Shown: piece after piece, positions 374 to 22,161 of the stretch
Layout of the letters: every line of letters begins with the position of its first letter
How positions within the stretch are numbered: position 1 is the stretch's first letter
IMG/VR virus record: IMGVR_UViG_3300043774_000250
Coordinates: 1 to 37,421 of that record
Origin: a virus
Length of the DNA: 37,421 nucleotides
Direction: 5' to 3' (one strand)
Program-made: the position numbers and the translations under genes
The notes under the pieces: generated by a model
Told to the model about the DNA's origin: nothing
The model's database searches: none
Seen by the model: only the letters and a program-made list of their open reading frames with translations

Positions 374-457
374 GGCGCCGCCCACCGTTACCTATTTGTT
401 ATTAAGGAATACGAAAAAAATGCCTCAAATGTCAGAGTGGTGTGGTAGGGTTTAGGT
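374..457 (+). promoter_or_regulatory. Long-type promoter cassette, leaderless
   Basis: GGCGCC at 374-379, inside a larger GC-rich palindrome. GTTAC/GTTAT pair at 387-402, 11 bp apart. TGTCAG-type element at 430-440, -10 TAGGGT at 446-451. Six bases then separate the -10 from the ATG at 458, so the transcript probably starts on the start codon. A stray TGTCGGTGG at 361-369 has no -10 behind it. Confidence 0.7.
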
Positions 458-817
458 ATGAAGAAATGCTCGAAGTGCGAACAGACCCTCGCTCACTCCT
501 CGTTCTCTCCCTCCTCTGGTGGGAAGTATCTGCGACCTGAGTGTCGTGACTGTGGTCGCAAGTTGGCTAATGAGCGTCGTGCTTTGCGTAAAGAGTATGG
601 CTACCCCGAATCAGGACACACCTGCCCTATCTGTCTAAAGTCAGAAGATGAACTCAAGGGGACAGGTGGCAACGCTTCCATTTGGGTAGTAGACCACGAC
701 CACGGTACAGGTGCATTCCGTGGACACATCTGCCACAACTGCAACCGTGGCTTGGGTGTGTTCCAAGATGACCTAGACCGTATCGCTAGGGCAATGGAAT
801 ATTTGCAAAACGCCTAG
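458..817 (+). CDS. Recombination endonuclease VII family HNH nuclease
   Basis: 119 aa, resembling the T4 gp49 (endonuclease VII) family, which cleaves Holliday junctions and branched DNA before packaging. C4/C7 and C29/C32 form an N-terminal knuckle. C56/C59 and C92/C95 bind the structural zinc. D79-H80-D81-H82 is the His-Me-finger catalytic motif, followed by the family signature N96-R97-G98-L99-G100. Length is typical of short actinophage and phage homologues. There is no Shine-Dalgarno sequence; the ATG is 6 bases after a -10, so it is probably leaderless. A more general nicking HNH role cannot be excluded. Confidence 0.88.
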
Positions 818-844
818 CCAGGACTTGACAGTTCGCTAGGGATC

Positions 845-922
845 GGCGCCCCCCTTCGTTACCAAAACGTTATTAAGTAAGTTACGAAAAACCTTGTAAA
901 TGTCGGAGGCTCGTGTTAGTCT
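845..922 (+). promoter_or_regulatory. Long-type promoter cassette, leadered
   Basis: GGCGCC 845-850, preceded by GATC. GTTAC/GTTAT pair 858-873, ACGAAA 884-889, TGTCGGAGG 901-909, -10 TAGTCT 917-922. Predicted start near 929. The short leader carries AACGAAAGG before the ATG at 947. Confidence 0.68.
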
Positions 923-946
923 TGTATTACAACGAAAGGATAACTA

Positions 947-1168
947 ATGATTTTTGAGCCTGTCTTCGGTGAAGACTTTGAGATTGTCGCCTACCTTGAC
1001 GACCTCGGCAACGAGTGGACTGTTGAGGAAACCCAGGACTACTGGAATGTTTCTGGCAACTCGCTTGAGTCGCAAGACTATGAGCCTGACGAGTCTTGGT
1101 GGGATGCCGACGCTATTGCCTCTGCTGGCTGGGGAACCGACGAGGACTACGGATACTACGGAGAGTAG
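947..1168 (+). CDS. Acidic hypothetical protein (73 aa)
   Basis: No family recognised. Strongly acidic (about a third D/E) and rich in W and Y, ending in a tyrosine/glycine-rich tail, with no cysteine and no membrane segment. Start chosen from the AACGAAAGGATAACTA leader and the promoter cassette at 845-922. Acidic early phage proteins often bind host proteins or mimic DNA; nothing here proves either. Confidence 0.7.
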   Translation: MIFEPVFGEDFEIVAYLDDLGNEWTVEETQDYWNVSGNSLESQDYEPDESWWDADAIASAGWGTDEDYGYYGE

Positions 1169-1173
1169 GCGAG

Positions 1174-1209
1174 GGCGCCGATCTCGCTGTCGGTGGCTCA
1201 TGTTATAGT
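1174..1209 (+). promoter_or_regulatory. Short-type promoter cassette, leaderless
   Basis: GGCGCC 1174-1179 lies 14 bases before TGTCGGTGG 1188-1196, then extended -10 TGT-TATAGT (1204-1209). Six bases follow to the ATG at 1216. There is no GTWAY pair. The palindrome starts 5 bases after the upstream stop codon. Confidence 0.72.
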
Positions 1210-1215
1210 CATTAT

Positions 1216-1437
1216 ATGAACGAATACGAAACCCTTGAAATCCTGTCCGAATACGAAGCAAAGGCTAACTATGATGCCTTACTAGACGAGTGCTACCCTA
1301 TCGTGTCTATTGGTTACTCAGAGTTTTATCCCTCAACGGTACTCAAAGAGTGTGACCCAATCGCATATCGCTGTGGCTTTGCTGACTATGTAGACTCATT
1401 AGCAGAAGAGGGAACTATGGTCGAGGGCTACTGCTAG
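1216..1437 (+). CDS. Hypothetical protein, leaderless (73 aa)
   Basis: No family recognised. Acidic, with four cysteines (near residues 26, 48, 53 and 73) not arranged as a zinc ribbon. The same frame opens further upstream, but the promoter at 1174-1209 places transcription at this ATG, so the shorter start is preferred. It is a single-gene unit, followed by another promoter cassette. Confidence 0.72.
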   Translation: MNEYETLEILSEYEAKANYDALLDECYPIVSIGYSEFYPSTVLKECDPIAYRCGFADYVDSLAEEGTMVEGYC

Positions 1438-1444
1438 GGGGGGC

Positions 1445-1523
1445 GGCGCCGCCGCTTCGTTACCATTTTGTTATACGAAACGCCCTCTAAATGCCCTAGA
1501 ATGTCGGTGGTCACTGCTACACT
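1445..1523 (+). promoter_or_regulatory. Long-type promoter cassette, leadered
   Basis: GGCGCC 1445-1450 in a GGCGGCGCCGCC palindrome. GTTAC/GTTAT pair 1459-1474, ACGAAA 1475-1480, TGTCGGTGG 1502-1510, -10 TACACT 1518-1523. The leader to the ATG at 1548 contains AACGAAAGG. Confidence 0.7.
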
Positions 1524-1547
1524 GTTTATATAACGAAAGGAAAACTA

Positions 1548-1694
1548 ATGCCAGAATGTGAAGTATGCCAGCACCGTGATTCGGTCTACATGGTAGATGT
1601 TGACTATGGTCGCATTATTCTTGTTTGTGCTACCTGTATCAACATCTTCCCCGATGGAGTAATCGTGGCTGAGGCAGATACCCGACTCATTTGA
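1548..1694 (+). CDS. Small zinc-ribbon protein (48 aa), paralogue of the gene at 11
   Basis: C4/C7 and C27/C30 give two CxxC knuckles separated by a short beta-rich stretch. Shares the ECE-x-C start and second knuckle with the protein at 11-181, so the two are paralogues of a lineage-specific family. SD is AACGAAAGG, 8 bases before the ATG. A new promoter overlaps just past its stop. Confidence 0.72.
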   Translation: MPECEVCQHRDSVYMVDVDYGRIILVCATCINIFPDGVIVAEADTRLI

Positions 1695-1695
1695 G

Positions 1696-1717
1696 TGTCA
1701 GTGGTCACTGCTAAAAT
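1696..1717 (+). promoter_or_regulatory. TGTCRG promoter, leadered, no palindrome
   Basis: TGTCAGTGG 1696-1704 and extended -10 CTG-C-TAAAAT (-10 at 1712-1717), with the same 16-base offset as the other copies. It begins one base after the upstream stop. No GGCGCC or GTWAY pair. The leader before the ATG at 1741 carries AACGAAAGG. Confidence 0.7.
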
Positions 1718-1740
1718 AGAAACATAACGAAAGGAAAACT

Positions 1741-1911
1741 ATGGAATACAAATATGTAACTGTATCAGTCTCACTGCTTGAGAACTTGGTGCGACTGAAT
1801 CGTGAAGACCAGGCACGATGCAAAGAAATGGGTCTTCGTGAAATGGAACAATGGCACGAGGGTCGTGCTATGGCTTTTGAGTTTATTCTCTCTGAGTTTG
1901 CAAACAACTAA
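1741..1911 (+). CDS. Hypothetical helical protein (56 aa)
   Basis: No family recognised. A short beta start (residues 3-12) is followed by a long charged amphipathic helix (about 13-54). Soluble, near-neutral charge, no cysteine pair. SD AACGAAAGG is 5 bases before the ATG. First gene of a three-gene run with 1930 and 2113. Confidence 0.68.
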   Translation: MEYKYVTVSVSLLENLVRLNREDQARCKEMGLREMEQWHEGRAMAFEFILSEFANN

Positions 1912-1929
1912 CGAAAGGCAAGAACTAAA

Positions 1930-2112
1930 ATGATGACACGCAAAGACTATGTATTTACCGCTGATGTAATCAACGATATGTATCACTTTTCACACGCTAC
2001 CGATAAAGAAATTGAGAATATGTCAATCGCTTTTGCTGATTACTTTAGCAATGACAATGAGCGTTTTGACCGTAAGATTTTCTTCAACGCTTGCTACCGA
2101 GAGAAGGACTAA
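1930..2112 (+). CDS. Hypothetical protein (60 aa)
   Basis: No family recognised. Mixed charged, predicted mostly helical, with one lone cysteine near the C-terminus. AACGAAAGGCAAG lies upstream, and either of two adjacent ATGs could start it. Stop is immediately followed by the ATG of the next gene, so translation is probably coupled. Confidence 0.68.
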   Translation: MMTRKDYVFTADVINDMYHFSHATDKEIENMSIAFADYFSNDNERFDRKIFFNACYREKD

Positions 2113-2241
2113 ATGAGTATGCTCCCATTGTTCGCATTTATGTTTGGGGTCATTGTGTTTGACACGGTAGTGATTCTCTACCTGTATGCCAAATACAAGA
2201 ATGCTAAGTATGAGGCATATCTAAACCGACCACCCTTCTAG
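2113..2241 (+). CDS. Single-pass membrane microprotein (42 aa)
   Basis: Residues 4-25 are one hydrophobic helix; the tail (27-42) is basic and tyrosine-rich, so the C-terminus probably stays in the cytoplasm. It starts directly at the stop of the upstream gene and ends 8 bases before a GGCGCC element. No homologue recognised; an inner-membrane targeted host-takeover or exclusion peptide is possible. Confidence 0.62.
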   Translation: MSMLPLFAFMFGVIVFDTVVILYLYAKYKNAKYEAYLNRPPF

Positions 2242-2249
2242 GAGGGGGC

Positions 2250-2327
2250 GGCGCCCCGATCCGTTATCGGAATGTTATTAAGTATCTTACGAAAAATGCC
2301 GTGAATGTCAGTGGTCAATGCTAAGAT
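2250..2327 (+). promoter_or_regulatory. Long-type promoter cassette, leaderless
   Basis: GGCGCC 2250-2255 followed by CCGATC. GTTAT/GTTAT pair 2263-2278, ACGAAA at 2289-2294, TGTCAGTGG 2306-2314, extended -10 TGC-TAAGAT (2322-2327). Six bases precede the ATG at 2334. Confidence 0.72.
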
Positions 2328-2333
2328 TGAGTT

Positions 2334-2495
2334 ATGAAGAAGAAACCAGCACCCAAGAAGATTCAGAACACCGCATACATTATTGCTATGCGAGGTCTGC
2401 GTAGTTCCAATGCGGCTACTACGCACGACAATCGACCTAATCGTCAGAGGACTCGTTCAGCAGTCAAGCAGGTTGCTATTCGGGAGTATGCCTGA
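2334..2495 (+). CDS. Basic small protein, leaderless (53 aa)
   Basis: No family recognised. Highly basic: residues 2-9 are lysine-rich, and a second R/K-rich stretch runs 34-50. A nucleic-acid-binding role is plausible. No SD; the ATG is placed by the promoter 6 bases upstream. It is the first gene of a transcript that would also carry tRNA-Asp 14 bases downstream. Confidence 0.65.
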   Translation: MKKKPAPKKIQNTAYIIAMRGLRSSNAATTHDNRPNRQRTRSAVKQVAIREYA

Positions 2496-2509
2496 TAGAA
2501 TAGGATAAT

Positions 2510-2583
2510 GGCTCTGTAGCTCAGTTGGTTAGAGCACTACCCTGTCACGGTAGGGGTCGCCAGTTCAAGTCTGGTCAGAGTCG
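2510..2583 (+). tRNA. tRNA-Asp (GTC)
   Basis: Full cloverleaf: acceptor GGCTCTG pairs with CAGAGTC (2576-2582), discriminator G2583. The anticodon stem CTACC/GGTAG encloses loop CTGTCAC, giving anticodon GTC. T-loop TTCAAGT. CCA is not encoded. Confidence 0.95.
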
Positions 2584-2593
2584 CAAATCGAAC

Positions 2594-2611
2594 AAAGGAG
2601 TTACTATGTAA
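2594..2611 (+). other. Start-stop minimal ORF between two tRNAs
   Basis: An AAAGGAG Shine-Dalgarno (2594-2600) lies 5 bases before ATG (2606-2608), which is immediately followed by TAA. The same bases form GTTAC-TAT-GTAAC (2600-2612), so the site may instead be a protein-binding inverted repeat. Confidence 0.4.
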
Positions 2612-2680
2612 CAGAGTAAACCAGCCACACTTACCGAAACCTAGGTGTAAAAAAGTAGGGGTGTGGTGTAGTAAATGTTA

Positions 2681-2756
2681 TTCCCCTTTAGCTCAACGGC
2701 AGAGCAACGAGCTGTTAACTCGTAGGTTCTTGGTTCGAATCCAAGAGGGGGAGCCA
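2681..2756 (+). tRNA. tRNA-Asn (GTT)
   Basis: Acceptor TTCCCCT pairs with AGGGGGA (one wobble pair). Anticodon stem CGAG/CTCG with loop containing GTT. T-arm CTTGG-TTCGAAT-CCAAG. CCA encoded at 2754-2756, unlike the tRNA-Asp upstream. The 97 bases between the two tRNAs hold only the start-stop site and a CCACAC/GTGTGG inverted repeat. Confidence 0.95.
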
Positions 2757-2765
2757 GGATCCAAG

Positions 2766-2801
2766 GGCGCCGACCTCACTGTCAGTGGTAGGTGTTACGA
2801 T
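2766..2801 (+). promoter_or_regulatory. Short-type promoter cassette, leadered
   Basis: GGCGCC 2766-2771, 10 bases after the tRNA CCA end, then TGTCAGTGG 2780-2788 at the same 14-base offset as the other short cassettes, and -10 TACGAT 2796-2801 with upstream TGT. Leader with GGAAAGGA before the ATG at 2828. Confidence 0.7.
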
Positions 2802-2827
2802 AGTATTACTTAGGAAAGGAAAAAATC

Positions 2828-3007
2828 ATGGCTTATGTATCTGAGTATGGTAACTATGGTGGTGAGGGAGTAATTGTATTCCCAGACTATCAACTTACCC
2901 CCGAACAATGGGATGAGTTAGATGTTCTGCCAGACAACGACAAAATGTCGTATGTTAAGGGTATACTAGATGAAAACGAACTAGGATATATGGAGTTTAA
3001 CGACTAA
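2828..3007 (+). CDS. Acidic hypothetical protein (59 aa)
   Basis: No family recognised. Acidic, aromatic and glycine-rich; no cysteine or membrane segment. SD AGGAAAGGA about 8 bases upstream. Its TAA overlaps the ATG of the next gene (TAATG), typical translational coupling. First gene of a five-gene operon ending at 3684. Confidence 0.7.
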   Translation: MAYVSEYGNYGGEGVIVFPDYQLTPEQWDELDVLPDNDKMSYVKGILDENELGYMEFND

Positions 3008-3198
3008 TGGGAGAAGCAATGAAGCGTGAATCATACATTCCACCTAAAGGAATGACACAAAAAGAGTTCCTAACTATAGTTGCAAATGACCTAGTAGATA
3101 TGGTAGTCTTGAAACAGGTAGACTTTACCTATGTGCCAAGTGTTCGTGACTTTATTATCAAACATTCTAAATCCCGCCACAGAAAGGTAGCAAAGTGA
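3007..3198 (+). CDS. Hypothetical protein with basic tail (63 aa)
   Basis: No family recognised. Helical, with a lysine/arginine/histidine-rich C-terminus (residues 52-63) that could contact nucleic acid. Start overlaps the previous stop as TAATG; M5 is an alternative. Its TGA overlaps the GTG of the following gene. Confidence 0.66.
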   Translation: MGEAMKRESYIPPKGMTQKEFLTIVANDLVDMVVLKQVDFTYVPSVRDFIIKHSKSRHRKVAK

Positions 3199-3338
3199 AA
3201 AGCAATCCATTTGAGGGAGACGAGCAGGGTATGGAAATTATGGATGCCCTTGACGAATACTATAAGAATCCCCAAGACTACACATTCCGTGACCTTGAGG
3301 AAATCTTCCAAGACCGTGACCCATTCGAGTTTCTCTAA
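3195..3338 (+). CDS. Acidic hypothetical protein, GTG start (47 aa)
   Basis: No family recognised. Acidic and helical, ending in an aromatic D/E/F-rich tail. The GTG start overlaps the previous TGA (GTGA), with GAAAGG about 6 bases upstream as ribosome site. Followed at 8 bases by the next gene behind AAGGAG. Confidence 0.62.
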   Translation: MKSNPFEGDEQGMEIMDALDEYYKNPQDYTFRDLEEIFQDRDPFEFL

Positions 3339-3346
3339 GGAGCAAA

Positions 3347-3559
3347 ATGAAAAAGTATGATATCACTGCTACTGTCAAGCTGTATGACTTTTGTATGCCT
3401 GACGACTTTGACCCTGAGAACAATGACGGTGGAGACATCCTAGTCGCCCTTGATATGTATGTAGATGAAAAGACATATCAAACAGGATGGCGAACATTCG
3501 AAGAGACTATGAAGGTGTCTGGCGATTGGGTTAGTGCTACCTATAAGGTAGTCGAGTAG
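3347..3559 (+). CDS. Hypothetical protein (70 aa)
   Basis: No family recognised. Alternating beta-like segments (residues 3-16, 30-40, 56-69) around an acidic glycine-rich loop. AAGGAG lies upstream. Its TAG overlaps the GTG of the next gene. Confidence 0.7.
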   Translation: MKKYDITATVKLYDFCMPDDFDPENNDGGDILVALDMYVDEKTYQTGWRTFEETMKVSGDWVSATYKVVE

Positions 3560-3684
3560 TGGAGTTTTTCCTACTACTCGTGATATCGGTATTGTTGATA
3601 GGAGTTATTTTGTTAATCATCTCTCCCCTGATTTTTACCGTGCTGTTTATCATTGAGAGTGTTTTGCAGAGACGAAGACACTAG
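3559..3684 (+). CDS. Hydrophobic membrane microprotein, GTG start (41 aa)
   Basis: Almost wholly hydrophobic from residue 3 to 33, with a proline near 23 that could break it into a hairpin of two short helices, then a basic RRRH tail. The start is inferred from the GTG overlapping the upstream TAG. Holin-like in size and character, but no lysis gene is adjacent, so I do not assign that role. Confidence 0.58.
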   Translation: MEFFLLLVISVLLIGVILLIISPLIFTVLFIIESVLQRRRH

Positions 3685-3692
3685 GAAAGATC

Positions 3693-3728
3693 GGCGCCGC
3701 TTTCACTGTCAGTGGGTACTGATACAGT
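3693..3728 (+). promoter_or_regulatory. Short-type promoter cassette, leadered
   Basis: GGCGCC 3693-3698 preceded by GATC, TGTCAGTGG 3707-3715 (14 bases after the palindrome start), -10 TACAGT 3723-3728 with TGA upstream. Leader with AACGAAAGGG to the ATG at 3752. Confidence 0.7.
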
Positions 3729-3751
3729 TGTATTACAACGAAAGGGAAAAA

Positions 3752-3880
3752 ATGCCGAACATGAAACTCACACCAACTAGGGCTGGACTTATTTTTGAGT
3801 GTGTAGACTGTGGCTCAAAGTTTGAGGCACTTGGCACAGAGGCAGACGAACACGAATGTATGACCGTCTTCTCATTCTAA
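3752..3880 (+). CDS. Zinc-finger microprotein (42 aa)
   Basis: C17/C20 with H34 and C36 make a probable C-x2-C-x13-H-x-C zinc site. SD AACGAAAGGG, 7 bases before the ATG. The same frame is open upstream, but the promoter at 3693-3728 lies within that extension, so the short form is chosen. Function unknown. Confidence 0.68.
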   Translation: MPNMKLTPTRAGLIFECVDCGSKFEALGTEADEHECMTVFSF

Positions 3881-3902
3881 TGTCGGTGGCTACTGCTAAA
3901 CT
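3881..3902 (+). promoter_or_regulatory. TGTCRG promoter, leadered
   Basis: TGTCGGTGG 3881-3889 starts on the base after the upstream stop. Extended -10 TGC-TAAACT (3897-3902). No palindrome or GTWAY pair. Leader with TACGAAAGG before the ATG at 3927. Confidence 0.7.
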
Positions 3903-3926
3903 GAAACCCTACGAAAGGAAAAACTA

Positions 3927-4403
3927 ATGGGCTTGGATATGTATCTTGAGGTTCGTCGCACACTTCGTACCTACACTTGGGATGACCAGTTTGAGAAAAT
4001 TGACAACCAGTTTGGGCAGTCTCTTGTTGCTCTTGCTGGTATGGAACACTTGGCTGGTCAAGAAAACTCTAGCGTCAGCATTGAGGTCAATGCAATCTAT
4101 TGGCGTAAGGTAAACTCTGTTCACCAGTGGTTTGTTGATAACATCGGTGGTGGTGTAGACGAGTGTCAGCGTATGTATGTCAAACGCAAAGACCTAGAGG
4201 ACTTGCGTGACTTGGTGAAGGACACTCTCATTCACCGCAACAAGGCTAGCGTTACTCTGCCAACGCAGGGTGGATTCTTCTTTGGCTCAACCGAGTATGA
4301 CGAATACTATTGGGGAGATTTGGAATACACGGCTAAGGAGTTAGACCGTGTGCTTGCCAACGCTAAGGAAAGCGATGACTTCTTCTATCAGGCTTCCTGG
4401 TAG
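3927..4403 (+). CDS. Conserved phage protein beginning MGLDMYL (158 aa)
   Basis: The N-terminal MGLDMYL and the downstream YWRK-x-N-x-VHQWFV region (residues about 58-71) match a hypothetical family found in many phages and some bacteria; I know no function for it. Soluble, mixed alpha/beta, no cysteine pair. Own promoter (3881-3902) and AACGAAAGG-like SD. Followed by a GACCC-TTCG-GGGTC hairpin and a GGCGCC element, so it is probably monocistronic. Confidence 0.8.
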   Translation: MGLDMYLEVRRTLRTYTWDDQFEKIDNQFGQSLVALAGMEHLAGQENSSVSIEVNAIYWRKVNSVHQWFVDNIGGGVDECQRMYVKRKDLEDLRDLVKDTLIHRNKASVTLPTQGGFFFGSTEYDEYYWGDLEYTAKELDRVLANAKESDDFFYQASW

Positions 4404-4433
4404 CAAGACGAGGGGTGCGACTCGATAACGCAT

Positions 4434-4447
4434 GACCCTTCGGGGTC
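4434..4447 (+). terminator. UUCG hairpin before cassette
   Basis: GACCC-TTCG-GGGTC, a 5-bp stem with the stable UUCG tetraloop, directly abutting the GGCGCC at 4448. No T-run follows, so it may act as a processing or partial termination site rather than a strong terminator. Confidence 0.4.
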
Positions 4448-4523
4448 GGCGCCGATCCGTAACCTAATTGTTACTTACGATATGTCTATTAAGACTCTCA
4501 CTGTCGGTGGCTGGTGTTATAGT
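4448..4523 (+). promoter_or_regulatory. Long-type promoter cassette, leaderless
   Basis: GGCGCC 4448-4453 flanked by GTC and GATC. GTAAC/GTTAC pair 4459-4474, TTACGA 4475-4480, TGTCGGTGG 4502-4510, extended -10 TGT-TATAGT (4518-4523). ATG at 4530 follows after six bases. Confidence 0.73.
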
Positions 4524-4529
4524 AAAGGT

Positions 4530-5252
4530 ATGACAAAGTTGATTCGTAGCAAAGACCGTAAAGTAACCAACGCTGTAACGCCTAACGGCAAGCAAGCCAG
4601 TATCGCTAACACTTTTGGTTTGCCTAGCGGAACGGCATTCTCATGTCCAGGTGCTACTAGCGTATGCGAAACTATCTGCTACGCTGGCAAGTTGGAAAAA
4701 GTCTTCAAGGGTGTGCGTATCAACCTCGAACACAACTGGGCATTAGTCAAAGACGCAGACTACCTAACCATGTATAACCTTATCCACGAAATGATTAGCG
4801 ACTTTGTTTCTGATTGCGAGCGTCGTGGTGCAGAGAAACTATTCCGCATTCACTGGGACGGTGACTTCTTCAACGAAGACTACACTATCGCATGGCGTGA
4901 TGTGATTTGTGACTTTCAGGATGTGCAATTCTGGGCATACACACGAAGCGACTTTGCTGTGCCTATCCTGATTGACATTCCTAATCTTGGTTTCTACTTC
5001 TCAACCGATAGTGCTAACAAAGAATTGGCTATCAGTCTCAAAGAGACTCACGGTATCAAGTTGGCTTACCTTGCTCAGACATTCGCTATTGGTAAGGCTG
5101 ACATTCTTGAGATTACTGGTGAGAGTGCTATCCCATGCCCCGAAAATAACAAGAAACTGCCAATGATTAGCGAAAAGGGTAGTGCCTGTGTTACCTGTGG
5201 GCAATGTATCTTCCAACGCAATGACATTCTGTTTTCTGCTACCAAAAAGTAG
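4530..5252 (+). CDS. GP88-family protein, possible Fe-S enzyme
   Basis: 240 aa, matching the phage gene-product-88 family (Pfam GP88) known from actinophages. The N-terminal SCPGATSVC-x3-C motif supplies C39, C46 and C50. A second cluster near the C-terminus has C203, C220, C223 and C226, enough for one or two iron-sulfur centres. The middle contains WDGDFFNEDY (109-118) and FWAYTRSD (134-141), which recall radical-SAM barrel strands, though no CxxxCxxC is present. No function is established. Leaderless: the ATG sits 6 bases after a -10; the same frame extends upstream through the promoter and is rejected. Confidence 0.82.
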   Translation: MTKLIRSKDRKVTNAVTPNGKQASIANTFGLPSGTAFSCPGATSVCETICYAGKLEKVFKGVRINLEHNWALVKDADYLTMYNLIHEMISDFVSDCERRGAEKLFRIHWDGDFFNEDYTIAWRDVICDFQDVQFWAYTRSDFAVPILIDIPNLGFYFSTDSANKELAISLKETHGIKLAYLAQTFAIGKADILEITGESAIPCPENNKKLPMISEKGSACVTCGQCIFQRNDILFSATKK

Positions 5253-5260
5253 CGGAGGGC

Positions 5261-5357
5261 GGCGCCCCCCCGATCCAAATCCCTATGTTACGATTAGGTA
5301 ACAAAAGGCTGAAAAGTGCCATTTGGACTTGCTATTGTCGGTGGTTACTGTCATACT
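5261..5357 (+). promoter_or_regulatory. Long-type promoter cassette, leadered
   Basis: GGCGCC 5261-5266 followed by CCCCCGATCC. GTTAC/GTAAC inverted pair 5287-5302, TGTCGGTGG 5336-5344, -10 CATACT 5352-5357. Here the pair lies 49 rather than 43 bases before TGTC. Predicted start about 5364, giving a leader near 60 bases. Confidence 0.68.
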
Positions 5358-5422
5358 TGATATATCAGCAAGACCGCTGGTAAATAAGTTGGCTGGCTCG
5401 CCAACAGAAAATGAGGAAGCAA

Positions 5423-5563
5423 ATGAATATCGGAGAAACCTTCACCACGCAGAAGTCGGGTGTGACTGGCACGATTGCCGAAGTAATCAAGAACGCAAGC
5501 GGTTCAGTTCGTGTTCTGCTCACCCTGCCTAACGGCGACAGCCGTTGGACTACCGTCAAGTAG
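5423..5563 (+). CDS. Small beta-rich protein (46 aa)
   Basis: No family recognised. Alternating hydrophobic/polar pattern suggesting a small five-strand barrel. GAGGAAG lies 5 bases before this ATG; an in-frame ATG at 5411 would add four residues. Followed by a 72-base gap and a new SD, with no promoter seen, so probably co-transcribed with 5636. Confidence 0.6.
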   Translation: MNIGETFTTQKSGVTGTIAEVIKNASGSVRVLLTLPNGDSRWTTVK

Positions 5564-5635
5564 TCTAACCCATTGTGCTGGGCATCACCCTAAACTGCCC
5601 ACTCCAAATCAAAAGCCAAATGAAAGGAAAACATA

Positions 5636-6085
5636 ATGGCTCGTTCACTCTCTGTGAAGATTCCCACCGCAACGCTTATTGCTGATGTCGAGGCTACGAT
5701 TGCTAAGATTGAGGAAGATGTTGCTAACTACCCTGCCCTGACCGAGAAGTATCGTGCGGACTCTAAGGCTTACAACGACAAGATTGTCCAACTGACGATT
5801 GACGCTATCAAGAAGAAGTCTGACCTTATCGGAACTGACTACGGCTCGCCTATTCGTGTGACCTCTGGCTACCGAGGCAACTCCGTTCAGATTGAGGTAG
5901 ACGGTGACGCTCTTGGATTCCCACAGAAGCCTGACGCACCCTCTAACCCTAATGACCGCACCTACTATGGTCGTGACTACACGACTAAGTTGGACTTGCT
6001 GAAGAAGAACCTCAAGGTTCTCAATATGACCAACCAAGAGGAAGTCAATGCCTCCACCTACAATACGGTAATGGAACTCCTCTAA
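5636..6085 (+). CDS. Hypothetical coiled-coil-start protein (149 aa)
   Basis: No family recognised. Residues 10-60 look helical and heptad-like; the middle (65-90) is beta-like and a proline/aspartate-rich loop follows (91-110). SD GAAAGGAAAAC, 3-4 bases before ATG. Ends 39 bases before a strong intrinsic terminator, so it closes this operon. Confidence 0.72.
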   Translation: MARSLSVKIPTATLIADVEATIAKIEEDVANYPALTEKYRADSKAYNDKIVQLTIDAIKKKSDLIGTDYGSPIRVTSGYRGNSVQIEVDGDALGFPQKPDAPSNPNDRTYYGRDYTTKLDLLKKNLKVLNMTNQEEVNASTYNTVMELL

Positions 6086-6122
6086 TGGAAAATGACCTGA
6101 GTATGTCTAAGTAAACTGCTCA

Positions 6123-6179
6123 AGCCCCCTATGTGAAGCGTCTGGATAGATTGCTGGTAAACATAGGGGGTTTCCTTTT
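6123..6179 (+). terminator. Intrinsic terminator
   Basis: CCCCCTATGT (6125-6134) pairs perfectly with ACATAGGGGG (6161-6170), extended by AAG/TTT. A 26-base loop separates the arms and TTTCCTTTT follows. Ends the transcript from 5352. Confidence 0.82.
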
Positions 6180-6189
6180 GGGCGAGGGC

Positions 6190-6281
6190 GGCGCCCCGAT
6201 CAGTCGCCATGTAACAAACAGGTTACGATGTTACGAAAACAACCCCTAGAGGTTGTAAATGTCAGTGGTTGCTGTCATACT
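6190..6281 (+). promoter_or_regulatory. Long-type promoter cassette, leaderless
   Basis: GGCGCC 6190-6195 then CCGATC. GTAAC/GTTAC pair 6211-6226 plus a third GTTAC at 6230-6234. TGTCAGTGG 6260-6268, -10 CATACT 6276-6281 with TGT upstream. ATG at 6288 after six bases. The pair-to-TGTC offset is 49. Confidence 0.71.
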
Positions 6282-6287
6282 TAGGAT

Positions 6288-6512
6288 ATGGAAAAGAAAA
6301 TGGGAACATACTTCATCGTTAGCGGTGAGTCGTATTATGTGCGAGCCAATTCTGAGGAAGAGGCTGAGGCTGTTTGGAATGTCGGCATGGGATACCTTGA
6401 CGCTTCTAACTACCCAGAATTTGATATTGAAGAAGACCCCTTCGAGCGTATCGAATATGGAGAGGCATACACCACGGTTGAGTCTATCGTAGACTTCAGT
6501 GTCAGTGGCTAG
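6288..6512 (+). CDS. Acidic hypothetical protein, leaderless (74 aa)
   Basis: No named family recognised. Residues 5-35 read as a beta strand followed by an E/A-rich helix, like small phage proteins with a repeated beta-E-E-A helix; compare 8778-8951 and 9050-9211. Very acidic. An alternative start is M5. A promoter for the next gene lies inside its last codons, which encode SVSG. Confidence 0.7.
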   Translation: MEKKMGTYFIVSGESYYVRANSEEEAEAVWNVGMGYLDASNYPEFDIEEDPFERIEYGEAYTTVESIVDFSVSG

Positions 6513-6521
6513 TGTTAGACT
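6500..6521 (+). promoter_or_regulatory. TGTCRG promoter inside gene end
   Basis: TGTCAGTGG 6500-6508 overlaps the last four codons of the upstream gene. Extended -10 TGT-TAGACT (6516-6521). Leader with AACGAAAGGG before ATG 6547. Confidence 0.68.
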
Positions 6522-6546
6522 TAGAATAACAACGAAAGGGAAAAGA

Positions 6547-6804
6547 ATGATTGACAAGGCTTTTGGACTACAAGAGGCAGTGCGTAACGCTGTCTACTCA
6601 GATGGTGTGCGACTGTCGGCACTAAACATTCTTCACGGTCACCAGATGATGAACGAGGAAGAAATGCAAAAGGCACTAATGGAACTTGTCTCAGAATTGG
6701 CAAGTGTGTCGTCCTTCTTCACAGTACAGGTTTTGCTGTCGGAGGATGAACAGAACGAATTGGCAGACACGATTGATATGCTTCAGGGAATGGGGAACAA
6801 CTAA
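6547..6804 (+). CDS. Hypothetical helical protein (85 aa)
   Basis: No family recognised. All-helical and acidic, with a methionine-rich turn near 35-45. SD AACGAAAGGGAAAAG. An upstream extension in frame runs through the promoter and is rejected. Stop overlaps the next start (TAATG). Confidence 0.7.
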   Translation: MIDKAFGLQEAVRNAVYSDGVRLSALNILHGHQMMNEEEMQKALMELVSELASVSSFFTVQVLLSEDEQNELADTIDMLQGMGNN

Positions 6805-7277
6805 TGATGGACTTTGAGAACATAAACATTGAGATGAAAGACCTGCCACCTGTACCTAGTGATGGCGACCTTGGTATCGAGACGGCTCTGGCTAATCGTG
6901 TCAACGACCTGACTAAGGAACTTGAGGTAGTCAAGGCTAGCAATGACGACTGGCGTGAGCGTTTCGGCAAAGAGCAAAACAAGATTTATGAGATTCGTAA
7001 CAACCTTGGGGAACTTCTCAAGACACAGATTGAGCACGAACTAATCACCAACACTGGTGCTAAAGAGATTGCTGAACTGGTCGGTATCGAACTGACCAAG
7101 ACGGTTACCGTCACTGGCTCGGTATCATTCCAAGGAACCATTGAGATTAGTATCTTCGATGACACTGATGAACTTAGTCAGTATGACATTGAGGTAGACC
7201 TGAACGTTAGCCACGACTACGACTCTCTGAACAACTTCGACTATGATGTAGAGTCTATGGAGTTTGAGGAAGAGTAG
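6804..7277 (+). CDS. Hypothetical coiled-coil protein (157 aa)
   Basis: No family recognised. Residues 30-75 form a probable coiled coil; 95-125 are beta-rich, and the C-terminus is very acidic. Start couples to the upstream stop; M2 is the alternative. A hairpin at 7290-7329 follows its stop. Confidence 0.72.
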   Translation: MMDFENINIEMKDLPPVPSDGDLGIETALANRVNDLTKELEVVKASNDDWRERFGKEQNKIYEIRNNLGELLKTQIEHELITNTGAKEIAELVGIELTKTVTVTGSVSFQGTIEISIFDDTDELSQYDIEVDLNVSHDYDSLNNFDYDVESMEFEEE

Positions 7278-7289
7278 GCCATTAAAGCT

Positions 7290-7329
7290 AGGGTGGGACC
7301 TTGTTAATTCCTTTCTTAGCTCCCATCCT
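7290..7329 (+). terminator. Possible terminator hairpin
   Basis: AGGGTGGGA (7290-7298) pairs with TCCCATCCT (7321-7329) with one wobble. The loop contains CCTTTCTT, and only a weak T-rich tract follows, so strength is uncertain. Confidence 0.45.
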
Positions 7330-7379
7330 ATAGACCTGGGCATGTCTTTAAAAGGCCCTTTCTCATACCCTGCGAGGGC

Positions 7380-7469
7380 GGCGCCCCGATCTGCGAATGT
7401 AACGTTTTAATTACGATGATTAAGAAAATGTCCCCAAAGCTTGTAATTGTCGGTGGTCTGTGTCATACT
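7380..7469 (+). promoter_or_regulatory. Long-type promoter cassette, leadered
   Basis: GGCGCC 7380-7385 then CCGATC. GTAAC/ATTAC pair 7399-7414, TTACGA 7411-7416, TGTCGGTGG 7448-7456, -10 CATACT 7464-7469. Leader with AACGAAAGG to ATG 7506. Pair-to-TGTC offset is 49. Confidence 0.7.
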
Positions 7470-7505
7470 TAGATAAGTAAACAAACCGCTAACGAAAGGC
7501 ACGAT

Positions 7506-8528
7506 ATGTCACACGAATTGGAAAAGGGCGAGAACGGCGAGGTTGCTTTCGCATCGTTCCGTGAACCTGCTTGGCATGGTCTTGGGACTGTGTTCGAGGA
7601 AGAAGTAAAGACCGCAGATATGCTGAAGTTGGCACATCTTGACAACTGGAATGTTCGCCTTGAGGAGATTCCTATCCCTGACGGCTTTGTCTCTGACAAG
7701 ACTAACTACTTTGTTGCTCGCACTAACCCATTCAACGACAAGCAGAATGACATTCTCGGTATCGTTGGTGAACGTTACAACACTCTTCAGAACGAGGACT
7801 TGTTCACATTCGGTGACAACCTGCTAGACGGTGGTGGACGCTGGGAGACTGCTGGCTCTATCAAGGGTGGTCGTGTTGTGTTCGGTGCTCTTGCTCTTGA
7901 GCGTGAGACTGTGCTTGACCCTAACGGTGTAGGCGACAAGGTAAACACTTACCTGTTGGTAAACACCTCTCACGACGGTAGCGTATCCATTATGGCTAGC
8001 ATTACCCCTGTGCGTGTCGTGTGTGCCAACACTCTGAACATGGCTATCGGTAGTGGCACAGGTCACTGGCGTAGTGCTAAGCAGTCGTTCAAGATTCGTC
8101 ACACTCAGACTGCTGAGGGTCGTGTTCACGAGGCTCGTGTTGCTCTTGGTCTTGCCAACGAATACATGGACGAGTTTGACAAGATGGCACAGGCTATGAT
8201 TGAGACTGAGGTCAGTAACGACACATTCCAAGATATCATTCGTGAGGTCTACCCCATGCCTGAGAAAGACGCTAAGGGTGCTATGTCCAAGTGGAACACC
8301 AAGCTGGAACTCATTGAGGACATCTACAACGGTCAGTTCAACAACACGATTTCTGGAACGGCTTGGGGTGTGCTCAACGGTATCACCGAGCGTCTTGACT
8401 GGTATCGTGCTGGACGCAAGGGTAACAGCGAGTCTGTCCTTGCCTCTGCCTCTGGCTTTGACCCTGCTATGAACGCTGAGAAGAATCGTATCCTTCGCAT
8501 TGTTCAGAACATGACAATGGCTTCCTAG
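7506..8528 (+). CDS. DUF932 / phage-plasmid-like protein (TIGR03299)
   Basis: 340 aa. The N-terminal PAWHGLGT motif (near 22-29), the central RVVCANTL block and the predominantly alpha/beta make-up match the DUF932 family, TIGR03299 type, common on phages and plasmids; its biochemical role is unsettled, with a DNA-replication or recombination accessory role often suggested. Typical length. SD AACGAAAGGCACGAT. Monocistronic: it ends before a CCTCCC-TTCG-GGGAGG hairpin. Codon use looks more GC-rich than the right half of the window. Confidence 0.88.
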   Translation: MSHELEKGENGEVAFASFREPAWHGLGTVFEEEVKTADMLKLAHLDNWNVRLEEIPIPDGFVSDKTNYFVARTNPFNDKQNDILGIVGERYNTLQNEDLFTFGDNLLDGGGRWETAGSIKGGRVVFGALALERETVLDPNGVGDKVNTYLLVNTSHDGSVSIMASITPVRVVCANTLNMAIGSGTGHWRSAKQSFKIRHTQTAEGRVHEARVALGLANEYMDEFDKMAQAMIETEVSNDTFQDIIREVYPMPEKDAKGAMSKWNTKLELIEDIYNGQFNNTISGTAWGVLNGITERLDWYRAGRKGNSESVLASASGFDPAMNAEKNRILRIVQNMTMAS

Positions 8529-8542
8529 TCGGTCAGTCACTG

Positions 8543-8558
8543 CCTCCCTTCGGGGAGG
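8543..8558 (+). terminator. UUCG hairpin after DUF932 gene
   Basis: CCTCCC-TTCG-GGGAGG, 6-bp stem and UUCG tetraloop, 15 bases after the stop codon and 7 before GGCGCC. No T-tract. Confidence 0.5.
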
Positions 8559-8565
8559 TGGTGGC

Positions 8566-8670
8566 GGCGCCGATCCTTTCTATATATAAATAGAGAAACA
8601 TATAATTACGATTACGATAGTGTAACAAAACTCCTGGGAAGTTTACATTGTCAGTGGCCTATGTCATACT
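8566..8670 (+). promoter_or_regulatory. Long-type promoter cassette, leaderless
   Basis: GGCGCC 8566-8571 with GATC. ATTAC/GTAAC pair 8611-8626, TGTCAGTGG 8649-8657, -10 CATACT 8665-8670. ATG 8677 after six bases. Offset of the pair to TGTC is 38, so this copy differs; the stretch between holds an AT-rich TATATATAAATAG run. Confidence 0.68.
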
Positions 8671-11183: not shown

Positions 11184-11237
11184 GGCGCCCACCCCTAGGG
11201 GCATTCCAAATACCAAATAAAATAAATACATTACGAA
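11184..11237 (+). repeat. Last GGCGCC element plus ATTACGA
   Basis: GGCGCC 11184-11189 within GGTGGGGC-GGCGCC-CACCCC, and ATTACGA 11231-11237. No TGTCRG promoter follows, so this copy has lost or never had the promoter part. Confidence 0.6.
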
Positions 11238-21839: not shown

Positions 21840-22159
21840 GGGAGTGAAAGGTTTCGACTGATCACTGAGTATCTGGAGAAGCATGTATTGACGGCTACAA
21901 ACAATTAAATTGTAGCAGGGTATAAGTGCAAACGATAAAACCAAATACGCTCTAGCAGCTTAGGTTGTCTGTAATGAGCACCTTGTCAGCAGTGGTCACA
22001 CTGAGCAACAAGTTCTTTAAATAATGTGATGTTTCTTAGGATGGTATAGTTGGACAGAGTGTTGTTAGTTCCATCTCTGTCTGTTTAATAAAACTAACTA
22101 AACATGTAGAAGTACAGACACTCTAGATTAGGACCTGGGTTCGATTCCCAGCACTTCCA
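21840..22159 (+). ncRNA. ssrA: Transfer-messenger RNA (tmRNA)
   Basis: 320 nt. The 5' GGGAGTG pairs with 3' CACTTCC (22152-22158) as the tRNA-like acceptor, discriminator A22159. AAAGGTTTCGACTG follows the 5' end, as in known tmRNAs, and the T-arm is CTGGG-TTCGATT-CCCAG. The mRNA part resumes at GCA 21928 and encodes ANDKTKYALAA, then TAG 21961-21963. It rescues stalled ribosomes with SmpB and marks products for ClpXP. CCA not encoded. A TTTATCTTTTT tract follows. Confidence 0.95.
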
Positions 22160-22161
22160 CT

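Follow-up and report, generated by a model that had tools for sequence, protein, structure and literature searches.

What reads a 16-bp element that recurs in front of the promoters of a partial viral contig, and from which position would its reader act? The contig is IMG/VR record IMGVR_UViG_3300043774_000250 (positions 1 to 37,421; this whole 37.4-kb stretch is hereafter called the window), the first 11 kb of which hold short genes, with a promoter of its own in front of every set. A preliminary description had listed nine pairs of the form RTWAY-N6-RTWAY in the gaps of this region, and all nine are present (Table 1), at exactly the distances claimed from the promoter motif TGTC (43 bases in five cases, 49 in three and 38 in one). 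Going by their sequence and placement, these elements are probably boxes for GlnR, the OmpR-family nitrogen regulator of the host, which would activate the early promoters of the phage from class I positions, with nitrogen shortage raising early transcription. Because a GlnR-site sequence stands where an activator would contact RNA polymerase, the phage probably borrows the nitrogen-stress switch of its host for its early genes.

The whole window contains 12 RTWAY-N6-RTWAY pairs. Ten were observed upstream of its 16 TGTC promoters, against 0.13 expected from dinucleotide shuffles, and among the spacings from N0 to N20 none other than N6 was enriched at these promoters. For comparison, 113 related phage loci were collected, 33 by means of the DUF932 protein and 80 further ones by means of GP88, the latter serving as an independent set for replicating the geometry; near-duplicate sites (differing at no more than 25 of 85 positions) were dropped, and the sites from related phages are still partly dependent. 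At 79 non-redundant promoters of the relatives N6 was the strongest spacing (22 observed versus 0.59 expected), with a weaker excess at N3, N7 and N14, and the 80 GP88 loci together contain 215 copies of GTWAY-N6-GTWAY, compared with 6 to 43 for each other spacing. The tenth pair in the window (2794-2809) overlaps a -10 hexamer, so that a regulator bound there would repress; as the relatives L009 and L010 lack it at their aligned promoters, it is probably a product of chance.

The preliminary description knew of no site like this, which is wrong, and the idea of a new kind of site was accordingly rejected: the element matches the published actinobacterial GlnR box, GTnAC-n6-GTnAC (PMC3087709, PMC10704036). 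That 16-bp box was derived by chromatin immunoprecipitation with microarrays (ChIP-chip) in Streptomyces venezuelae, where its commonest in vivo form is a single copy (PMC3087709); it appears in a table of GlnR boxes that also includes a-b-a-b sites (PMC10704036), and GlnR sites have been described as 11-nt direct repeats (PMC5826061). The pairs at 4459, 5287 and 6211 fit GTnAC-n6-GTnAC without mismatch, and the other six have T at a final Y or A at a first R. With the S. venezuelae box, and with its S. coelicolor form gTnAc-n6-GaAAc, the phage elements share the half-sites, the 6-bp gap, the 16-bp length and the 11-bp repeat, as well as the single or, in some relatives, 22-bp tandem arrangement and, in the candidate host family, the location upstream of amt and glnA. 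They differ in standing in early promoters rather than before nitrogen genes, in a second half-site that is often GTTAT, and in being usually single and placed in two orientations with matched distances.

Taken as a pattern, RTWAY equals its reverse complement, so the half-sites alone cannot show whether the repeats are direct or inverted, as the preliminary description had read them. Orientation is instead given by the flanking bases (GTWAYC-N4-YGTWAY or, more loosely, RTWAYC-N4-YRTWAY), which make the site asymmetric: the 43-base class is forward and the 49-base class reverse. The suggestion that the binder tolerates either orientation holds in the relatives and in the independent phages, but it needs refining, as the asymmetric site flips together with a change in distance. 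Flipping is accompanied by a 6-bp (or -4-bp) shift, which would keep the bound protein in phase with the promoter.

To place the boxes, distances were counted to the -10 hexamer, set to begin at -12 of predicted start sites. TGTC was dropped as the reference, several relatives keeping box and promoter without it; indeed, in the gap before the DUF932 gene, L009, L013 and L015 have the box and the -35 and -10 hexamers and lack TGTCRGTG, which ties the element to the latter hexamers rather than to TGTC. Forward boxes lie 48-49, 59-60 or 69-71 bp from the -10 hexamer and reverse boxes 45, 55, 65-67 or 76 bp from it, and the coherence of the two orientation sets at a 10.5-bp period is 0.87 and 0.86. 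Exchanging the orientation labels never reproduced this comb in 4000 trials (permutation p < 1/4000). If the binding centre is set 2 bp off the middle of the 16-mer, this one offset unites both orientations and raises the coherence from 0.32 to 0.86; a shift of roughly 3 bp the other way does nearly as well, so that either sign of the centre offset is compatible with the data. When the 2-bp offset was fixed beforehand and applied to the 80 independent loci, the coherence was 0.92, versus 0.25 without the offset. Column-shuffled versions of the motif, 14 in all, and its variants with N5 or N7 spacing gave between 0 and 4 promoter-associated sites on each strand, where the real motif gave 35 and 23.

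Class I activation by CRP takes place from -61.5, -71.5 and -82.5. The merged predicted centres of the phage boxes fall near -51, -61.5, -72 and -82.5 and would thus occupy the same helical positions. The placement proposed in the preliminary description, that of a class I activator, is thereby supported in the relatives and in the independent set, with a helical comb added to it. One feature sets the phage promoters apart from the solved GlnR complex, in which four sites are bound by a GlnR tetramer: most of them have one box.

Loss of the element or of its spacing in relatives had been named as grounds for abandoning it; in fact both are kept. In the DUF932 gap, L008, L010 and L011 all retain GTAAC and ATTAC, with AATCTA, ATTTCA and AATTGA as the intervening six bases, and the half-sites of the 8611 box are kept in L008, L010, L011 and L015. 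In the gap corresponding to 5287, distant phages (protein identity about 55%) have boxes in the forward orientation and at different in-phase distances, whereas the box of the window is reverse. Tandem boxes exactly 22 bp apart, like the a-b-a-b arrangement published for GlnR, occur in L021, L027, L028 and L029, whereas those of the window are single.

The DUF932 protein (encoded at 7506-8528) has its nearest isolates among the Streptomyces phages of the Samisti12/Riptide group (52-54% identity), which the gene layout of the window also resembles. A closer relative (65% identity) lies on a 4.7-kb contig binned in a 1.3-Mb metagenome-assembled genome (MAG) of Actinomycetota, L042. Via this one binned phage contig, the candidate hosts are small-genome actinobacteria of the MAG's family, for which 61 genomes of 0.9-2.2 Mb were analysed. 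A full GlnR match was found in 50 of them, and a GlnR of the family is nearest to the solved chains 8hih, 8hig and 8hml, with MtrA (2gwr) far behind.

The host family itself uses the motif. RTWAY-N6-RTWAY stands upstream of amt, the ammonium transporter gene, in 11 of 30 loci, often as GTAACC-N4-YGTAAC, and is absent from 37 kb of amt coding sequence; GTAAC-N6-GTTAT stands upstream of glnA in many of the genomes, including the MAG. The strict oriented motif occurs one to five times per host genome, and its intergenic copies mostly precede amt and transporter genes, many of them for solute-binding proteins, in keeping with the GlnR regulon, which is known to include sugar and nitrogen transporters. 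A matrix built from the host amt and glnA sites alone placed eight of its ten best window matches upstream of phage promoters in the first 12 kb; for column-shuffled matrices the mean was 0.86 and the maximum 4 of the ten best matches.

Taken together, these observations suggest the following scheme. GlnR would bind the two GTWAY half-sites, 11 bp apart, head-to-tail at nine early promoters, all of the sigma-70 type and each with one box whose predicted centre lies near -61.5 or -71.5. From there it may touch RNA polymerase from upstream in class I fashion, the asymmetric box working both ways because its distance is adjusted to keep the protein on the same side of the helix. This would probably mean more early phage transcription in a nitrogen-short host, a state common for environmental hosts; alternatively, the nitrogen drain caused by infection itself may trigger the GlnR effect.

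Table 1. Boxes, promoters and GC-rich palindromes in the window. Positions are those of the window; the fourth column gives the TGTC motif of the promoter behind each box.
Feature	Position	Strand	TGTC	Remarks
GlnR-type box GTTACCTATTTGTTAT	387..402	+	430	Forward; 59 bp before -10 hexamer; predicted centre about -61.5
GlnR-type box GTTACCAAAACGTTAT	858..873	+	901	Forward; third half-site GTTAC at 881
GlnR-type box GTTACCATTTTGTTAT	1459..1474	+	1502	Forward
GlnR-type box GTTATCGGAATGTTAT	2263..2278	+	2306	Forward; box also in same gap of L010, L009 and L015
GlnR-type box GTAACCTAATTGTTAC	4459..4474	+	4502	Forward; among best matches of host-derived matrix
GlnR-type box, reverse complement GTTACCTAATCGTAAC	5287..5302	-	5336	Reverse; 65 bp before -10
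GlnR-type box, reverse complement GTAACCTGTTTGTTAC	6211..6226	-	6260	Reverse; best match of host-derived matrix
GlnR-type box GTAACGTTTTAATTAC	7399..7414	-	7448	Reverse-like; half-sites kept, N6 variable in L008, L010 and L011
GlnR-type box ATTACGATAGTGTAAC	8611..8626	-	8649	Orientation ambiguous by sequence; in phase with reverse class
Promoter TGTCAGAG-N8-TAGGGT	430..451	+		
Promoter, -35 TTGTAA, 17-bp spacer containing TGTCGGAG, -10 TAGTCT	894..922	+		
Promoter TGTCGGTG-N8-TACACT	1502..1523	+		
Promoter TGTCAGTG-N8-TAAGAT	2306..2327	+		
Promoter TGTCGGTG-N8-TATAGT	4502..4523	+		
Promoter, -35 TTGCTA, 17-bp spacer containing TGTCGGTG, -10 CATACT	5329..5357	+		
Promoter, -35 TTGTAA, 17-bp spacer containing TGTCAGTG, -10 CATACT	6253..6281	+		
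DUF932 gene promoter, -35 TTGTAA, 17-bp spacer containing TGTCGGTG, -10 CATACT	7441..7469	+		
Promoter, -35 TTTACA, 17-bp spacer containing TGTCAGTG, -10 CATACT	8642..8670	+		
GGCGCC	374, 845, 1174, 1445, 2250, 2766, 3693, 4448, 5261, 6190, 7380, 8566, 11184			

Several observations weigh against GlnR as the reader of these boxes. The link to the host is that single phage contig, in an incomplete MAG where GlnR was not found, and GTTAT, frequent among the phage half-sites, is rarer in the boxes before host amt. A box is missing from some phage promoters and from many distant relatives, and the isolated Streptomyces and mycobacterial relatives mostly lack one near their promoters: none was found there in the Streptomyces phages Riptide and Samisti12 or the mycobacteriophages KingCyrus and Jobu08, and the remaining matches in Yaboi, DekoNeimoidia and other isolates are mostly GTGAC-type pairs, some within genes. 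(Samisti12 has one exact GTTACCTAATTGTTAC, L041:5496-5511, at a gene end with no recognised promoter behind it.) In cyanophage, moreover, predicted Pho boxes were not always bound on testing (PMC10976474). To these points belongs MtrA, likewise of the OmpR family, the response regulator of the MtrAB system, whose site is nearly identical to the GlnR box and which, found in 52 of the 61 host-family genomes, is about as widespread as GlnR. Were MtrA the reader, the phage would follow the cell-envelope or growth state of the host and not its nitrogen supply. Streptomyces MtrA recognises GtnAcC-n5-GTnAcn (PMC13189361), to which the forward class, as GTTACC-N5-GTTAY, comes close; the boxes at 5287 and 6211 match on the other strand, those at 7399 and 8611 poorly. 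MtrA is also known to bind GlnR boxes, where it competes with GlnR (PMC9045223). Nevertheless, the motif in the host family stands upstream of amt, glnA and transporters, which are GlnR-like targets, and the 22-bp tandem boxes are a GlnR pattern. No RTWAY-N6-RTWAY pair was found upstream of mtrA, glnR or recA in that family, and for mtrA this means 0 of 30 loci within 350 nt, transcription of the gene possibly beginning further upstream. We therefore regard MtrA as a less likely reader than GlnR, and an unlikely one overall.

It is rather improbable that a DNA-binding protein of the phage reads the element as a private early switch, its likeness to the GlnR box being mimicry or convergence. 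The boxes are concentrated in phage gaps at about 100 times the host-genome density, and the phage records are partial, which leaves room for a regulator of their own and counts against host GlnR. A phage-encoded OmpR-type regulator was rejected as a candidate, since no Trans_reg_C domain (PF00486) was matched in the 11 related phage records tested; besides, the same oriented motif stands before nitrogen genes of the host, and early promoters have to fire before phage protein builds up. That a bound regulator represses, keeping the early genes down until the nitrogen status changes, would have parallels in GlnR, which represses ald by binding across its start site, and in MtrA, which represses nitrogen genes (PMC9045223), yet each of the nine boxes is located ahead of the -35 hexamer at a class I distance and none over a start site, making repression improbable here. 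Hardly credible, finally, is an origin of the elements as by-products of one promoter cassette duplicated round the early region and kept by recombination rather than function. The gaps do have further repeats in common (a GC-rich palindrome, TTACGA, the promoter and the Shine-Dalgarno sequence), but in orthologous gaps the orientation of the box can switch from one phage to another, the spacers have diverged between constant half-sites, and the same helical comb holds for unrelated gaps of distant phages; the switching and the comb in independent loci led us to reject it.

The promoters behind the boxes carry a second element. Their sequence fits the RecA-NDp promoter consensus, tTGTCRgtg-N8-TAnnnT, reportedly given by Gamulin in 2004, several having CANNNT in place of TANNNT; the spacer element TGTCRGTG-N8-YANNNT would, by this consensus, be a form of the element read by PafBC. 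TTGTCAGTGGCGCCTGCTACCTT or a near copy precedes recA in 3 of the 30 host-family loci, and WYL-domain proteins are encoded in 61 of 61 genomes (for the biology of PafBC, see PMC6789036 and PMC8223512). TGTCRGTG and the box are separable elements, as relatives exist that have one and lack the other. In the window, the TGTCRGTG promoters with TGTC at 1188, 1696, 2780, 3707, 3881 and 6500 have no GlnR-type box; they mostly stand close behind the preceding gene. Only tentatively, and with more doubt than confidence, do we suggest that the early promoters answer to two stress systems of the host at once, to nitrogen shortage by way of GlnR at the upstream box and to DNA damage by way of PafBC at the TGTCRGTG spacer element, so that infection would read both states in setting early expression, a strategy that may have spread over a large phage group of small-genome freshwater actinobacteria.

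Other repeats share these gaps. The palindrome GGCGCC has 13 copies, every one in a gap within the first 11.2 kb and none in the remaining 26 kb; 12 of them precede a promoter, three at exactly 14 bp from TGTC and the others at 54-83 bp, often followed by CGATC. Its place is taken by GGCCGGGCC in L009 and L015 and by GGCCGCCCCGGCC in Streptomyces phages. No GTWAY pair precedes the DUF932 gene in L017-L023, L028, L031, L032 and L034-L036; repeats of TTTACGA/TTTAAGA at intervals of 11-12 bp occupy about the same place and are possibly a box for a different regulator. TTACGA(A) repeats at 11231, 11396, 11589, 11748 and 11892 lie in an AT-rich, gene-poor stretch with no TGTC promoters nearby. A transfer-messenger RNA (tmRNA) gene occupies 21840-22160 of the window, with the tag ANDKTKYALAA; the tmRNA tag of L010 is ADKSSYALAA.

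Boxes for host nutrient regulators have precedents in cyanophages. In T4-like cyanophages the NtcA sites number 1-16 per genome (PMC3037559), again several boxes in phage promoters for the nitrogen-stress regulator of the host; NtcA, however, is a cyanobacterial CRP-family protein with GTA-N8-TAC sites, whereas GlnR is an actinobacterial OmpR-family protein. Cyanophage genes under host PhoBR control, as seen by gel shift (PMC10976474), likewise answer to a host response regulator of the OmpR/PhoB family, but there the signal is phosphate and not nitrogen, and the genes are scattered, in contrast to the many early promoters with phased boxes described here. A search of the openly accessible literature turned up no account of such boxes for GlnR in phages, actinophages included. 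Given these precedents, the phage boxes would represent a known strategy in a further form, with an unusually strict geometry. The oriented, phased sites provide many natural variants that would show the placement rules for an asymmetric OmpR-family activator site. If GlnR is indeed their reader, a large group of environmental actinobacterial phages would couple its first wave of gene expression to the nitrogen regulator of the host, as an actinobacterial counterpart of the cyanophage NtcA and Pho boxes, and nutrient state would be linked to infection in freshwater bacteria that are probably very abundant.

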